Shown here piece by piece: positions 22,960-28,364 of a DNA stretch of 33,425 nucleotides. Source of the stretch: a virus; IMG/VR virus record IMGVR_UViG_3300013101_000046, positions 1 to 33,425 of that record; one strand, given 5' to 3'. The translations under genes were made by a program, and so were the position numbers. Under the pieces are notes generated by a model that did no database searches, had not been told where the DNA came from, and saw only the letters and a list, made by a program, of their open reading frames with translations. Each line of letters opens with the position of its first letter. The first letter of the stretch is position 1.

Positions 22960-23145
22960 TCACAAACCCAGACAACAGGTACTGCAAATAATAAAGAAAA
23001 TGCCTTGATTAGTAAGCCAATTAGCCAATAATAAATAAACATCCTGGTCGCAGAGGGAAGTGTTAGTATAGGTATTAATCAGAGTGACTCCTGCATTCTT
23101 CCTTTTGCAGTATAAAGGGTTTCTTATGTTCTTGTGGTTATCCAT
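22960..23145 (-). CDS. Doubtful small ORF, 61 residues
   Basis: An open frame with ATG at 23145. The N-terminal half is polar (MDNHKNIRNPLYCKRKNAG) and the C-terminal half hydrophobic with several Cys (WLTNQGIFFIICSTCCLGL), which could be one membrane segment. There is no SD or leader motif, it stands isolated in the region between the nuclease and the tRNAs, and plus-strand signals occur here too. I list it because 22867-23222 has no better gene, but I regard it as more likely a chance frame. Confidence 0.22.
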   Translation of the reverse strand: MDNHKNIRNPLYCKRKNAGVTLINTYTNTSLCDQDVYLLLANWLTNQGIFFIICSTCCLGL

Positions 23146-23222: not shown

Positions 23223-23354
23223 ATGAGAAATCTAGCGTCATCTAAAGAATTGAGAAAAATATCAGACATTGAAAAATTCTTAGTAAACGCTATAAGTATG
23301 AACATTGTAAAGAACGAAGTTCATTTATTAAGAGTGATAACAGAGTATAATTGA
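23223..23354 (+). CDS. Small plus-strand protein next to the tRNA cluster
   Basis: A 43-residue open frame, MRNLASSKELRKISDIEKF and onward to TEYN, ending TGA at 23354. It has an SD-like GAAAGAGGT immediately before the ATG, unusual for this window. It is helical and amphipathic with no membrane segment. It ends on the last base of the tRNA-Gln gene, which is on the other strand, so the two converge. The good ribosome site and amphipathic pattern favour a real gene, but the length is short. Confidence 0.45.
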   Translation: MRNLASSKELRKISDIEKFLVNAISMNIVKNEVHLLRVITEYN

Positions 23355-23425
23355 TCCCTCGGCTGGAATTGAACCAGCATTTTTTGGCCCAAAACCAAAC
23401 GTCCTGCCAATTAGACGACAAGGGA
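23354..23425 (-). tRNA. tRNA-Gln (anticodon TTG)
   Basis: The reverse strand folds into a full cloverleaf: acceptor TCCCTTG / CGAGGGA, D arm, anticodon stem TTTGG / CCAAA with loop TTTTGGG giving anticodon TTG, and T arm GCTGG / CCAGC with loop TTCAATT. It reads CAA codons, which are common in this A+T-rich genome. It is the third of three tRNAs transcribed leftward from about 23600. CCA is not encoded. Confidence 0.93.
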
Positions 23426-23434
23426 ATAATAAAG

Positions 23435-23508
23435 AGCCGCCAGCAGGATTCAAACCTGCGAATAACTGGGTTGCAACCAGCCCCTTTAGATCACTCAGGC
23501 ACAGCGGC
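23435..23508 (-). tRNA. tRNA-Cys (anticodon GCA)
   Basis: Cloverleaf with acceptor GCCGCTG / TGGCGGC (ending in two G-U pairs), a short D arm (CCT / AGG), anticodon stem GCTGG / CCAGT with loop TTGCAAC (anticodon GCA) and T arm GCAGG / CCTGC with loop TTTGAAT. The discriminator is U, as in bacterial tRNA-Cys, which supports the identity. The weak D stem and two wobble pairs make it slightly unusual. Confidence 0.9.
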
Positions 23509-23519
23509 TTATTAAATTA

Positions 23520-23594
23520 GTCTAAGTTGCAAGACTCGAACTTGCGATCTCCTGCTCCCAAAGCAGGCGGATTACCAACTTTCCCAAACCTAGA
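23520..23594 (-). tRNA. tRNA-Pro (anticodon TGG)
   Basis: Cloverleaf with acceptor TCTAGGT / ACTTAGA, anticodon stem CCTGC / GCAGG with loop TTTGGGA giving anticodon TGG, and T arm GCAAG / CTTGC with loop TTCGAGT. It reads CCA codons. It is the first of the three leftward tRNAs. The C discriminator is not the usual A for Pro. Confidence 0.9.
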
Positions 23595-25462: not shown

Positions 25463-25496
25463 AATTATTGGTTTAATTTATAATTAATCAAATATA

Positions 25497-25937
25497 CTAA
25501 TTATTAATCACATTTAAAATCTGACCCATTATATGAGTATGAAAATATGCTTCTGCCTCAACTTCAGTATCTCTATCAAGTAAGTCCGGTAAATAAAACT
25601 GACAAAGATGTAGTACTTCATGAGCCACTCTAGTATAATCAAAATCACATTTCTTAAAACCTGTAGTCAACGATATAATAGTATATTTAGAAAACCGATC
25701 AGAATCTTTAGGTGCTACATCACAAATTCCGCAAAACCAATTATTAGATCTAAAAGTATTTTCATGAGCCCTCACAGATTCAATCCAACAATCCATAACT
25801 TTTTTATTAACTCCTTTTTTCTTTCTCATCTTTTTAAGATGTTTCAAAGTCTGATCATAATCATAACCGTTAATAAATAAAGTCTCTCCAGGATAACATC
25901 CATGGTCAATCCATCCAATATACTTTTTTACACTCAT
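25497..25937 (-). CDS. HEXXH metallopeptidase-like protein
   Basis: I start at the ATG at 25937 (MSVKKYIGWIDHG; 146 residues); a longer frame begins at a TTG 15 bases upstream. Residues 105-112 read AHEVLHLC, an HExxH zinc motif, followed by VEAEAYFHTHI, whose Glu127 or Glu129 could be the third ligand. Cys14, Cys69 and Cys72 may be structural. This looks like a gluzincin-type minimal metalloprotease or a related Zn protein. It is the first gene leftward of the divergent control region, so it is probably expressed early from that promoter region. The motif is clear; activity is untested. Confidence 0.7.
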   Translation of the reverse strand: MSVKKYIGWIDHGCYPGETLFINGYDYDQTLKHLKKMRKKKGVNKKVMDCWIESVRAHENTFRSNNWFCGICDVAPKDSDRFSKYTIISLTTGFKKCDFDYTRVAHEVLHLCQFYLPDLLDRDTEVEAEAYFHTHIMGQILNVINN

Positions 25938-26262
25938 ACACCGAATATACAAAAAATTTTTTGCCCGCGAATTCTGGCCTGGGGGAGTAACCTTTAATCA
26001 TTTACAACCAAATACTACCCCTACCATTACTCATAGCGAAATACTAATCCCTACTAGGGCATATCAAAAACGGCACGGATTTCATTCACCCCATTAGAAA
26101 CTAGATTACGGTGCTAGTGCGCATCCTCTGGGAAATTGTACATTTTAGAGGATGTGGTTGGGCCTCTATAAAAAAAATTTTTTTAAAAGTCTGCACCCCC
26201 TACCCCCCTAGCAATTTGTGGACTAAACCCATAATTATAATTAAATCTTTAAAAATAATACT
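25938..26262. promoter_or_regulatory. Divergent intergenic region, likely control or origin region
   Basis: About 325 bases separate leftward and rightward transcription and carry no ORF worth listing. The region has GC-rich patches in an A+T-rich genome, two AAATACTA copies (26010-26017, 26039-26046) each followed by a C-rich tract, an 8-bp inverted repeat CATCCTCT / AGAGGATG (26122-26129, 26147-26154), an A8-T7-A4 run (26170-26188), and a C-rich stretch at about 26194-26210. The direct repeats and the A/T run fit a divergent promoter or replication origin. No canonical Bacteroidota promoter (TTTG ... TAnnTTTG) is obvious. Confidence 0.5.
26225..26231 (+). promoter_or_regulatory. AAACCCA leader box 1
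   Basis: The first of seven AAACCCA boxes on the plus strand. It is followed by an A+T-rich ATAATTATAATTAAATC stretch and then the ATG at 26263, 31 bases on. Similar boxes precede other tiny genes at 24-35 base spacing, which makes a promoter or leader element likely. Confidence 0.6.
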
Positions 26263-26406
26263 ATGAAAAAGTCTTCTGCATTCTCACTAGTTAGTCTAAT
26301 CATCATCTTCTTCTCAGGACTAGCTTTTCTGACAGGTGTCAGTATGTTTCTTGCTCCAGTCTTCGTGTTTCTAATGATACTACCTGCATGTAGTATGGAG
26401 CGCTAA
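26263..26406 (+). CDS. Tiny membrane protein, 47 residues
   Basis: A 47-residue open frame starting MKKSSAFSLVSLIIIFFSG, with two hydrophobic segments (about 7-27 and 29-42) separated by Gly/Thr, ending ACSMER. It could insert in the host inner membrane as a small early protein, for example in superinfection exclusion, though this is inferred. The AAACCCA box lies 31 bases upstream. It is the first rightward gene after the control region. No homologue is recognised. Confidence 0.6.
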   Translation: MKKSSAFSLVSLIIIFFSGLAFLTGVSMFLAPVFVFLMILPACSMER

Positions 26407-26449
26407 TATTCCCTAATGCTATGCCTATTGGTGTAGTATTAGGCTCATT

Positions 26450-26456
26450 AAACCCA
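26450..26456 (+). promoter_or_regulatory. AAACCCA leader box 2
   Basis: AAACCCA followed by CAATTTCAATTAAACTTTAAT and an ATG at 26481 (24-base spacing). Used here to choose the 26481 start over a longer frame beginning at 26421, which would place the box inside the coding sequence. Confidence 0.6.
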
Positions 26457-26480
26457 CAATTTCAATTAAACTTTAATATT

Positions 26481-26648
26481 ATGAAAACAGTTATCGCAAG
26501 CATCCTCGCAACAAGCAATGATAGTATAAGATCTACTCAAACTAAGATTAACCAGTGGCGTACTGCTGGTAGATTAGTTGAGATGGAAATACATACTACA
26601 AGTACTCATATTGTATTTGTCATTACACTTAAAAAGAATGCTAAGTAG
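26481..26648 (+). CDS. Small protein of 55 residues, unknown
   Basis: I start at 26481 (MKTVIASILATSNDSIRSTQ), because the AAACCCA box and A+T-rich leader precede it; the frame is open 60 bases further upstream but would read through the leader. It is a soluble alpha/beta-type mini-protein with a T/S-rich middle and a strand (HIVFVITL) near the end, finishing KKNAK. The stop lies inside a terminator stem. It probably forms its own transcription unit. Not recognised. Confidence 0.62.
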   Translation: MKTVIASILATSNDSIRSTQTKINQWRTAGRLVEMEIHTTSTHIVFVITLKKNAK

Positions 26649-26658
26649 CATTCTTTTT
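26631..26658 (+). terminator. Terminator containing the stop codon of the 55-residue gene
   Basis: Perfect 12-bp stem AAAAAGAATGCT / AGCATTCTTTTT with tetraloop AAGT, followed by a T. The TAG stop (26646-26648) spans loop and 3' arm, so the gene and its terminator are fused. Confidence 0.88.
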
Positions 26659-26668
26659 TACACCTAAT

Positions 26669-26675
26669 AAACCCA
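26669..26675 (+). promoter_or_regulatory. AAACCCA leader box 3
   Basis: AAACCCA followed by TCATTAAAATTAAACTTTAAA and ATG at 26706 (30-base spacing). It lies 11 bases after the previous terminator. Confidence 0.6.
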
Positions 26676-26705
26676 TCATTAAAATTAAACTTTAAAATAT
26701 TTATT

Positions 26706-26858
26706 ATGAAAAAATTCCATTCGCTAGTAGCATTCTTATTACATGAGGCAGCCTTATGTAATACACACATCAATAAGCACACATTATATGTATACGCTAT
26801 TGATTTATTTAGTAATCAAGAAATGCTTGAATACGTACATGAAAGCAAAGGGCATTAG
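26706..26858 (+). CDS. Tiny His-containing protein, 50 residues
   Basis: A 50-residue frame starting MKKFHSLVAFLLHEAALCNT. The N-terminal MKKxHSLVxFL pattern is shared loosely with the 47-residue gene at 26927, suggesting a common origin. It is weakly hydrophobic at the start, with a polar C-terminus rich in His and Glu (EYVHESKGH). The stop TAG is at the base of a terminator stem. Unknown role; probably an early host-interaction peptide, inferred only from location and size. Confidence 0.55.
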   Translation: MKKFHSLVAFLLHEAALCNTHINKHTLYVYAIDLFSNQEMLEYVHESKGH

Positions 26859-26865
26859 CTCTTTG
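26846..26865 (+). terminator. Terminator overlapping the stop of the 50-residue gene
   Basis: Eight-base-pair stem CAAAGGGC / GCTCTTTG (one G-U pair) with loop ATTA, followed by TTTTA. The TAG at 26856-26858 lies at the end of the loop and start of the 3' arm. Confidence 0.8.
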
Positions 26866-26884
26866 TTTTACAATTATAATTAAT

Positions 26885-26891
26885 AAACCCA
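26885..26891 (+). promoter_or_regulatory. AAACCCA leader box 4
   Basis: AAACCCA followed by an A+T-rich stretch and ATG at 26927 (35-base spacing). The preceding 20 bases are also A+T-rich (ATTATAATTAAT). Confidence 0.6.
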
Positions 26892-26926
26892 TTATTTAAA
26901 CTGAATATTTACTAAATACTATTATT

Positions 26927-27070
26927 ATGAAAAGTTTACACAGAATCGTACAAGGTTGGAAAATGACTACTGACCAAATAGGTGATGATAAAGATAAGAA
27001 ATGGCTATTAAGCGTTCTTGTTGCTGATTCATTAACGCATGAAATTACTCACAAGAAGGTGGCTATTTAG
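26927..27070 (+). CDS. Tiny basic protein, 47 residues
   Basis: A 47-residue frame starting MKSLHRIVQGWKMTTDQIGD, with a DDKDKKW block and a helical C-terminus ending HKKVAI. It has no membrane segment. Its stop lies in a GTGGCT / AGCCGC hairpin, but the next gene starts only 23 bases later with no box of its own, so the two may form a short operon. Not recognised; similar in size and leader to its neighbours. Confidence 0.55.
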   Translation: MKSLHRIVQGWKMTTDQIGDDKDKKWLLSVLVADSLTHEITHKKVAI

Positions 27071-27081
27071 CCGCTTTCATA
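27055..27081 (+). terminator. Weak hairpin overlapping the stop at 27070
   Basis: GTGGCT / AGCCGC with loop ATTT, enclosing the TAG stop, followed by TTTC. The stem is short and the T tract weak, so termination may be partial and allow read-through into the next gene. Confidence 0.5.
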
Positions 27082-27093
27082 ATACTTACTGTT

Positions 27094-27270
27094 ATGGAAA
27101 ATTATATTAATTGGCTTGTGAACATATTAATGCCTGACGGTAAGATATTATCCACAAGAGAAATGGCACCTACTGCATATTATGCTATTGATAAAGCAAT
27201 GCGTAAACATTATCGCAGGCAGCCGGATAGAAAAAAATATAAAGCTATTGCACCTTTTATTAAGGTGTAA
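27094..27270 (+). CDS. Small basic protein, 58 residues
   Basis: A 58-residue frame starting MENYINWLVNILMPDGKILS, with an aromatic, basic middle (YYAIDKAMRKHYRRQPDRKK) and a short C-terminal strand ending IAPFIKV. The basic stretch could bind nucleic acid. It has no AAACCCA box of its own and follows the previous gene by 23 bases, so they are probably co-transcribed. Its stop is in a strong terminator. The function is unknown. Confidence 0.58.
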   Translation: MENYINWLVNILMPDGKILSTREMAPTAYYAIDKAMRKHYRRQPDRKKYKAIAPFIKV

Positions 27271-27273
27271 TAG
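27245..27273 (+). terminator. Strong terminator containing the stop of the 58-residue gene
   Basis: A 12-bp stem CTATTGCACCTT / AAGGTGTAATAG (one G-U pair) with loop TTATT, followed by TTTG. The TAA stop (27268-27270) is inside the 3' arm, as in neighbouring units. Confidence 0.85.
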
Positions 27274-27283
27274 TTTGCCCAAT

Positions 27284-27290
27284 AAACCCA
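27284..27290 (+). promoter_or_regulatory. AAACCCA leader box 5
   Basis: AAACCCA followed by TTATTAAAATTAAATTAAAA and ATG at 27320 (29-base spacing). It supports the short 32-residue reading frame over a 78-residue frame that would read across the terminator and leader. Confidence 0.6.
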
Positions 27291-27319
27291 TTATTAAAAT
27301 TAAATTAAAATCAAATCTC

Positions 27320-27418
27320 ATGGAAAGAAGACATCATCATTATAACTCTGAAATTACACTAGCAAGGTTGGTAGGTGTATTCATTGTACTAATAATATTA
27401 CTAATCTCAATATCATGA
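27320..27418 (+). CDS. Tiny membrane protein, 32 residues
   Basis: A 32-residue frame starting MERRHHHYNSEITLARLVGV, with one membrane span (about 17-32, GVFIVLIILLISIS) and a basic, His-rich N-terminus, so N-in orientation is likely. The longer upstream frame in the same phase crosses a terminator, so I reject that start. Its TGA overlaps the ATG of the next gene (ATGA), suggesting translational coupling. Probably a small early membrane peptide. Confidence 0.55.
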   Translation: MERRHHHYNSEITLARLVGVFIVLIILLISIS

Positions 27419-27546
27419 ATTCATCTGCAAAAATACATGTGGACATTGTCAACATGAACATAGGGATTTTATACATGGTCAATCTTATAGACGTTAAGAA
27501 CTGTGTATTTATGCCATTAGACCGCATTTTCATAGGTTACAATTAA
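27415..27546 (+). CDS. Small protein translationally coupled to the membrane peptide
   Basis: A 43-residue frame starting MNSSAKIHVDIVNMNIGILY; its ATG overlaps the previous TGA (ATGA). It is moderately hydrophobic with strand character and ends DRIFIGYN. It is followed 7 bases later by a strong terminator, so it closes the 27.3-27.6 kb unit. Overlap with the neighbour supports translation, but the short length keeps confidence low. Confidence 0.5.
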   Translation: MNSSAKIHVDIVNMNIGILYMVNLIDVKNCVFMPLDRIFIGYN

Positions 27547-27553
27547 GGTTTAG

Positions 27554-27588
27554 TACCTCTCTTCAGTGTTGAAGGGAGGTATTTTTTT
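27554..27588 (+). terminator. Strong terminator at 27.57 kb
   Basis: A 12-bp stem TACCTCTCTTCA / TGAAGGGAGGTA (one U-G pair, plus-strand only) with loop GTGT and seven T. It ends the rightward unit of 27320-27546. Confidence 0.9.
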
Positions 27589-27926
27589 GCTGTAGCATTT
27601 CAATAATGAGGGTCATATACGGGCAAAATAGCTAAAAAGTTAATGTGTTGATAATTAGGAAAATAGTATCAAATTTCCCTGACGCAGTAATACTGAATGA
27701 TAGGAGCATATGGTAGCAGTTAGGATTCCAATAGCTTTTAACTTACTCCTTTAAACCCATCATTTCAATTGCATTATTATATTGAGTTTGAAATGATGAG
27801 CATACTGTATAGCAGTAACCACGGTGTTTCCCATACTTATTTATTACTCCTTTAAACCCATTATTTTAATGGTAGTTATAGAGTATGACTACGCAAATCA
27901 CAATCATTAATTAAAATTCACGAATC
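27589..27926 (+). promoter_or_regulatory. Leader region with two repeated units before the 145-residue gene
   Basis: There is no listed gene in these 338 bases. It carries two AAACCCA boxes, each preceded by TACTCCTTT (27753 and 27854). Each is preceded by a short frame ending LLL-stop at the box (14 and 20 codons), so the units look like tandem copies. The first also has an 11-bp inverted repeat CATCATTTCAA / TTGAAATGATG (27758-27768, 27788-27798). These features suggest regulated leader transcripts or leader peptides ahead of the downstream gene. Confidence 0.5.
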
Positions 27927-28364
27927 ATGAAAGGATTATTCAAATCAGATTACACAAATGATGGAAACAAACGTGCTGTTTACATTGTTAAAGGAACCAA
28001 AGCAGAATTAGATGCTTACGAAAAAGCTGTCAATGACAATGATAGCGGCTTTGAGATGGCTACTGATGAAAAGACTGGAGAGCCATTATTCTTTGGAAAG
28101 AGACTTGGACCATCATGTGTTATTGAAGTGTCAGATAATGGATTTATTAACGCGTTCAATAAAGATGCTCAAGCCATTACGGAAAGCATTGGTATGTATG
28201 AAGATGATGCTGAAATGCAAAAGGCTCTAAGAGATGCTGCAGCTCAAGCTATCATTGCGAAAGCATTAGGTGGAAGTCCTAGTAGAGTTGCTGCACCAGC
28301 ACAACCAGAGGCTGCATCAGAAGATGTATCCACTGAGGAGACTGAGGCGGAACCAGAGTTGTAA
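27927..28364 (+). CDS. 145-residue protein with acidic Ala/Glu-rich tail
   Basis: Starts MKGLFKSDYTNDGNKRAVYI, with an alpha/beta domain (about 1-90), then a helix, and a low-complexity tail from about 115 (Pro, Ala, Glu, Ser) ending ETEAEPEL. The tail looks disordered and very acidic. It is the largest gene in the 26.2-29.6 kb stretch. It has no membrane segment. It is followed by a hairpin with a GCAA tetraloop. It could be an acidic host-binding protein, such as a nucleic-acid mimic, but that is conjecture. Confidence 0.7.
   Translation: MKGLFKSDYTNDGNKRAVYIVKGTKAELDAYEKAVNDNDSGFEMATDEKTGEPLFFGKRLGPSCVIEVSDNGFINAFNKDAQAITESIGMYEDDAEMQKALRDAAAQAIIAKALGGSPSRVAAPAQPEAASEDVSTEETEAEPEL

Follow-up and report, generated by a model that had tools for sequence, protein, structure and literature searches.

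The nearest precedents for the repeated boxes described here are the early promoters of phage AR9 and the pre-early motif of Thermus phage P23-45. In AR9 and the phiKZ-related jumbo phages, as in our case, many copies of a strict phage-specific motif stand before early genes and were found through their over-representation, and 33 of the 34 AR9 promoters predicted from the over-represented motif were confirmed (PMC5312081). P23-45 likewise has a motif before its pre-early genes and a double-barrel virion polymerase (gp96), and the motif is also found in its relatives (PMC10770324). It has been reported that early transcription of phage phi14:2 is rifampicin-resistant and carried out by the virion polymerase, the late genes being ascribed to the host enzyme (review, PMC10136315). 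The primary phi14:2 paper (Drobysheva et al. 2021) lay outside the literature that we searched, and the novelty of the boxes is therefore provisional; within that literature we found no early promoter motif for a crAss-like phage, so that the statement of a first-pass annotation of this DNA, that no published motif matches, stands to this extent.

The AR9 motif is AAATATATATTAT-6N-G and belongs with a multisubunit polymerase, whereas in the boxes described here TAAA comes after a core centred on CCC or CTC, and the relatives have a polymerase of the single-chain crAss type. The P23-45 motif is A+T-rich and similar among relatives; here, in contrast, the word changes between lineages. Phage N4 follows a similar programme in that a virion polymerase transcribes its early genes. 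The promoters of the N4 virion polymerase are hairpins on single-stranded DNA, whereas folding of our boxes as single-stranded DNA gave no hairpin or stable fold (z-scores -1.5 to 1.3). phi14:2 shares with our phages a divergent layout, a homologous early gene and, in the relatives, a homologous polymerase (gp66), but its early block contains no repeated word. Repeated asymmetric words between or before small genes are also seen in mycobacteriophages, namely the stoperators of cluster A, which are repressor sites, and the start-associated sequences of cluster K, which adjoin the start codon. Unlike these elements, the box described here is the sole promoter-like element between terminator and gene.

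A box array at the divergent junction

The window, by which we mean the whole stretch of DNA analysed, is a viral fragment of 33,425 bases, and the phage collection contains no record close to it. Its terminase and portal gave tblastn matches mostly to crAss-like phages (20-31%; Cellulophaga, Flavobacterium and Bacteroides phages among them), and as judged from these two proteins of a 33-kb fragment, the phage appears to be a distant relative of crAss-like phages. Late genes run leftwards on the minus strand from about 26 kb and early genes run rightwards on the plus strand from 26.2 kb, a divergent layout common to the window and phi14:2; genes are called early on the basis of layout and homology. 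Three tRNA genes (Gln, Cys and Pro; 23353-23593, minus strand) lie close to where the late block meets the junction. The first portal match listed among named phages was Lbo-JY46 (31%; PP438436 112080-114749), whose host Leptolyngbya, a cyanobacterium, is unusual for a crAss-like relative.

The boxes open the early block, at the point where late and early genes diverge. A word search located AAACCCA on the plus strand at 26225, 26450, 26669, 26885, 27284, 27753 and 27854, confirming the seven plus-strand copies within 1.6 kb that the first-pass annotation had reported; six of the seven boxes read TAAACCCAT. The A+T tail that had been noted after most boxes is conserved as TAAACCCAT.ATT..AATT.aA, and the distances from the end of AAACCCA to the next ATG are 31, 24, 30, 35, 29, 33 and 8 nt for boxes 1 to 7, the first five agreeing with the 24-35 bases proposed for five boxes. 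Box 1 with its tail (26224..26245, plus strand, TAAACCCATAATTATAATTAAA) precedes a 47-aa early gene at 26263..26406 (plus strand), a homologue of phi14:2 gp128 (39% over 44 aa), which sits in the early block of that phage. Box 2 (26449..26470, plus) precedes a 55-aa early gene (26481..26648, plus), a probable homologue of the boxed gene at 3326 of contig L102 (33% over 36 aa). Box 3 (26668..26689, plus) lies just downstream of a terminator hairpin with a T tract (26634..26660, plus) and before a 50-aa early gene (26706..26858, plus), and box 4 (26884..26905, plus) follows a hairpin with a T-rich tail (26846..26872, plus) and precedes a 47-aa early gene (26927..27070, plus). The next gene, of 58 aa (27094..27270, plus), has no box of its own and is a homologue of L102 4910 (44%). 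Box 5 (27283..27304, plus), which again follows a hairpin with a T-rich tail (27249..27276, plus), is succeeded by a 32-aa early ORF (27320..27418, plus) and a 43-aa early gene (27415..27546, plus), after which comes a strong terminator (27552..27588, plus).

Box 6 (27752..27773, plus) is followed only by a 20-codon ORF (27793), and box 7 (27853..27874, plus), a near-duplicate of box 6 including its upstream flank, lies 66 nt before the gene for a 145-aa early protein (27927..28364, plus). Nine further lineages have members of this family in their early blocks; the N-terminal half is conserved, and PHROG gave no match and Pfam none above the cut-off. No convincing ORF was seen at 27584-27752 or 27776-27926, the second of which is preceded by boxes; both stretches could possibly give short non-coding transcripts, and an Rfam search of the early block returned no match. 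The later early and middle genes on the plus strand carry no box.

The array is far beyond chance expectation. Between 26100 and 28000 there are 7 copies of TAAACCCA against a mean of 0.05 (maximum 1) in dinucleotide shuffles, and in 200 shuffles no 8-mer with at least three G/C ever exceeded 4 copies. A 24-position matrix scored the seven window boxes at 25-30 bits and the rest of the window at 16 bits or less. Outside the array, AAACCCA occurs in the whole window only at 22964 (plus), 2222 (minus) and 8736 (minus), each time inside an ORF.

Related phages carry other words at the same place

We sampled 72 contigs with related terminases, and G039 was found through an early protein. Many of these relatives have runs of tiny plus-strand genes at the same divergent junction, and the most over-represented junction word differs by lineage, giving six words with that of the window: AAACCCTTGA in G039 (12 copies), TTAACCCTTTT in G033 (8), TATCAACCTAC in G016 (8 plus one variant), TTCCCTTA in G014 (6-7 copies; as TTCCCT[TC]A, 6 plus one variant) and AAACTCTTGT in G030, G006 and G008, which form one clade (5, 5 and 3). 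These arrays, too, are far above chance. The cores of the six words are alike (ACCCA, ACCCT, ACCCT, ACCTA, TCCCT and ACTCT), and five of the six box types, all but that of G016, have TAAA or TAAT at 10-12 nt after their CCC or CTC core; the downstream TAAA is in part a trait of A+T-rich leaders. Homologous early genes stand behind different box words. Searches of the relatives for the window's own box, exact and with two mismatches, found no arrays, the relatives using other words, and we found nothing closely related to the early block of the window itself.

The words are nearly confined to the plus strand of the early block. Exact copies there account for 8/8 of TATCAACCTAC in G016 (111.5 kb; all within 2.3 kb), 12/13 of AACCCTTGA in G039, 8/8 of TTAACCCTTTT in G033, 6/6 of TTCCCT[TC]A in G014 and 5/5 of AAACTCTTGT in G030, and in G008 (84 kb) three copies of AAACTCTTGT lie in the block and two outside it. 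Exact words are thus absent or rare outside (0-2 per record). Matrix scans gave 15-37 bits for the arrays and mostly 7-16 elsewhere, the gap being mostly wide, so that the arrays are nearly all-or-none. The first-pass annotation had named as its own refutation a box that is equally common inside genes; the distribution is the opposite.

Not every related phage has such an array. In G024, G027, G032, G011 and G002 the candidate words have no more than 2-4 copies and are suggestive only, and the word TAACTCTT of the G012 clade was rejected as a box, being neither frequent nor confined to the early block. Word enrichment gave no repeated box-like word in the early blocks of phi14:2, though a virion polymerase is proven there, and crAss001, which speaks against a general rule. 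The early regions of Lbo-JY46 and phi4:1 also yielded no box-like word; the enriched words of phi4:1 were rejected as tRNA sequence.

Terminators and host-type promoters around the boxes

In the window, the earlier claim that terminators lie between the units holds for about half of the gaps, since boxes 1, 2 and 7 have no clear terminator hairpin upstream. Across the window and relatives, a terminator-like hairpin with a T-rich tail was present within 80 nt upstream of 37/52 boxes compared to 75/280 random positions in the same blocks, a contrast that is a low estimate because the control includes positions right after the same terminators. In G016 the T tract almost touches the box, and several boxes begin 4-10 nt past the terminator stem. 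The box is usually 14-50 nt from the ATG, the distance varying from 14 to beyond 50 nt. Because it usually comes after a terminator and ahead of an ATG, it is both the first conserved element downstream of the terminator and the last one upstream of the gene. Some boxes are not closely followed by an ORF (27753 in the window, and parts of G033 and G016).

The early blocks differ from the late side of the junction in host-type promoters. At the junction, TTTG-N19-TAnnTTTG is oriented towards the late genes, as a perfect match in G008, G030 and G006 (the one clade) and in G024, and with one mismatch and a spacing of 19 in G039, G027, G032 and the window, such matches being near chance expectation in several records. 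The possible site of the window (25489..25519, minus strand, TTTT-N19-TATATTTG, one mismatch) is within chance expectation when the window is taken alone. In the early direction, the early blocks of the window, G039, G033, G030, G006, G008, G024 and G027 contained no TTTG-N18-22-TAnnTTTG even when one mismatch was allowed, which for the window upholds the earlier remark that the box does not resemble the Bacteroidota housekeeping promoter; G016, G014, G011 and G032 have one or two such one-mismatch matches each. A scan for E. coli-type sigma-70 sites was at chance level. This pattern fits two systems, in which boxes would serve the early genes and host promoters the late genes.

A homologous virion polymerase is encoded by five relatives

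The phi14:2 virion polymerase (gp66 in the literature) probably corresponds to GenBank gp077, as judged from its length of 2180 aa and its DFDID motif. Five relatives (G008, G011, G016, G024 and G032), all with boxes or candidate boxes, encode a homologue (best E 8e-23 to 5e-9), and the catalytic motif aligns in all of them as DYDID, DFDVD or DFDVD-like; the window fragment stops short of the polymerase region. A search for DxDGD did not pick up the polymerase, the phi14:2 motif being DFDID, and when the G016 polymerase was compared with PDB sequences the phi14:2 structure was not among the matches listed, whereas direct BLAST with the phi14:2 protein matched. The G016 homologue is 4289 aa long (L152 99-12965, minus strand) and has near its C-terminus, at residues 3942-4081, a weak ybiA/NADAR-domain match (E 9e-4).

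The boxes as putative early promoters

Taken together, these results indicate that the boxes are very probably promoters. This role is well supported because the boxes are confined to the early block, stand between terminator and ATG and are nearly all-or-none, because relatives have other words at the same place, and because the early block lacks the host promoter that faces the late genes in several relatives. We further consider it probable that they are early promoters read by the phage's virion RNA polymerase. Of what the first-pass annotation had suggested, recognition by the virion polymerase or else an early leader, the part that concerns a promoter is well supported, and the virion polymerase is the best candidate for the reader because relatives with boxes encode a homologue and because of the published early transcription of phi14:2. 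Both the start of transcription at the boxes and the polymerase that reads them are inferred here from sequence.

Each box with its A+T tail would be the promoter of one immediate-early transcription unit, in which it is followed by a short leader rich in A+T, by one or two tiny genes and, in many cases, by a terminator, and the second tract near TAAA would probably lie at or near the transcript start. The reader would most likely be the virion RNA polymerase of the phage itself, which would enter the cell together with the DNA. A phage-borne reader would explain why the word varies by lineage while the late-facing promoters keep the host consensus; lineage-by-lineage change of the word is expected with such a reader and not with the host housekeeping enzyme.

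The boxes could instead be promoters for host RNA polymerase, with the housekeeping sigma or an alternative factor encoded by phage or host. The element is promoter-like in place and form, and a phage-encoded factor could also vary by lineage. This explanation is nevertheless unlikely: the host-type pattern, which at several junctions points towards the late genes, has no early-direction match with up to one mismatch in the early block of the window or in those of seven relatives, E. coli-type sigma-70 sites are no more frequent than expected by chance, the word differs between related phages, and a newly made phage factor would come too late for immediate-early genes unless it was injected. 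An operator for a phage regulator, comparable to the one-directional stoperators of cluster A mycobacteriophages, would account for a repeated, asymmetric, lineage-specific site in one orientation between terminators and genes. It appears improbable given that G016 boxes 4-10 nt after a terminator stem leave no space for another promoter upstream, that box and tail are the sole conserved element seen before the ATG, and that copies occur almost only ahead of early genes.

That the boxes lie in the leader region ahead of short ORFs would suit an element acting on the RNA, in translation, stability or processing, as with the start-associated sequences of cluster K mycobacteriophages. We regard such a role as quite improbable, however. 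The distance to the ATG runs from 14 to beyond 50 nt; some boxes have no evident ORF behind them (window 27753, G033 and G016), which is evidence against a translation signal; no stable fold is predicted; and individually terminated genes would still need a promoter, of which we saw no other. Boxes 6 and 7, which share about 20 nt, may be duplicated, but chance or mere recent duplication of one segment can practically be dismissed as the origin of the array, since the word is kept although the remaining boxes have different flanks and genes, the relatives have independent arrays with other words, and the shuffle and matrix results contradict chance.

We also advance a more general proposal, whose likelihood we hold to be evenly balanced. 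The crAss-like virion polymerases of this clade may read a short promoter with a W-C-Y-C-W-like core, usually followed by TAAA 10-12 nt on, whose exact word drifts with the polymerase by lineage. Such drift would amount to a naturally occurring promoter code, read by a relative of the RNA-interference polymerases, and the early block would be an array of small units, each with its own promoter and often its own terminator. The boxes give the phage polymerase a testable target: up to a dozen strict sites per genome and six words in related phages are templates for in vitro transcription, and the differences between words offer a comparative route to the DNA-reading part of the enzyme. In uncultured crAss-like phages they could also serve to identify early genes.

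Two further early regions deserve mention. In G014, the boxed early block is directly followed by about 30 tiny plus-strand ORFs (L102 5739-10420) of roughly 40-70 codons, many starting MIK or MIN, which have no boxes and resemble an expanded gene family. In the cultured Flavobacterium phage Fpv20 (L158), the early strand at 70-90 kb has [AT]AACCC seven times in 20 kb; 5/7 copies lie in the first 3.8 kb, and some stand just before early genes.
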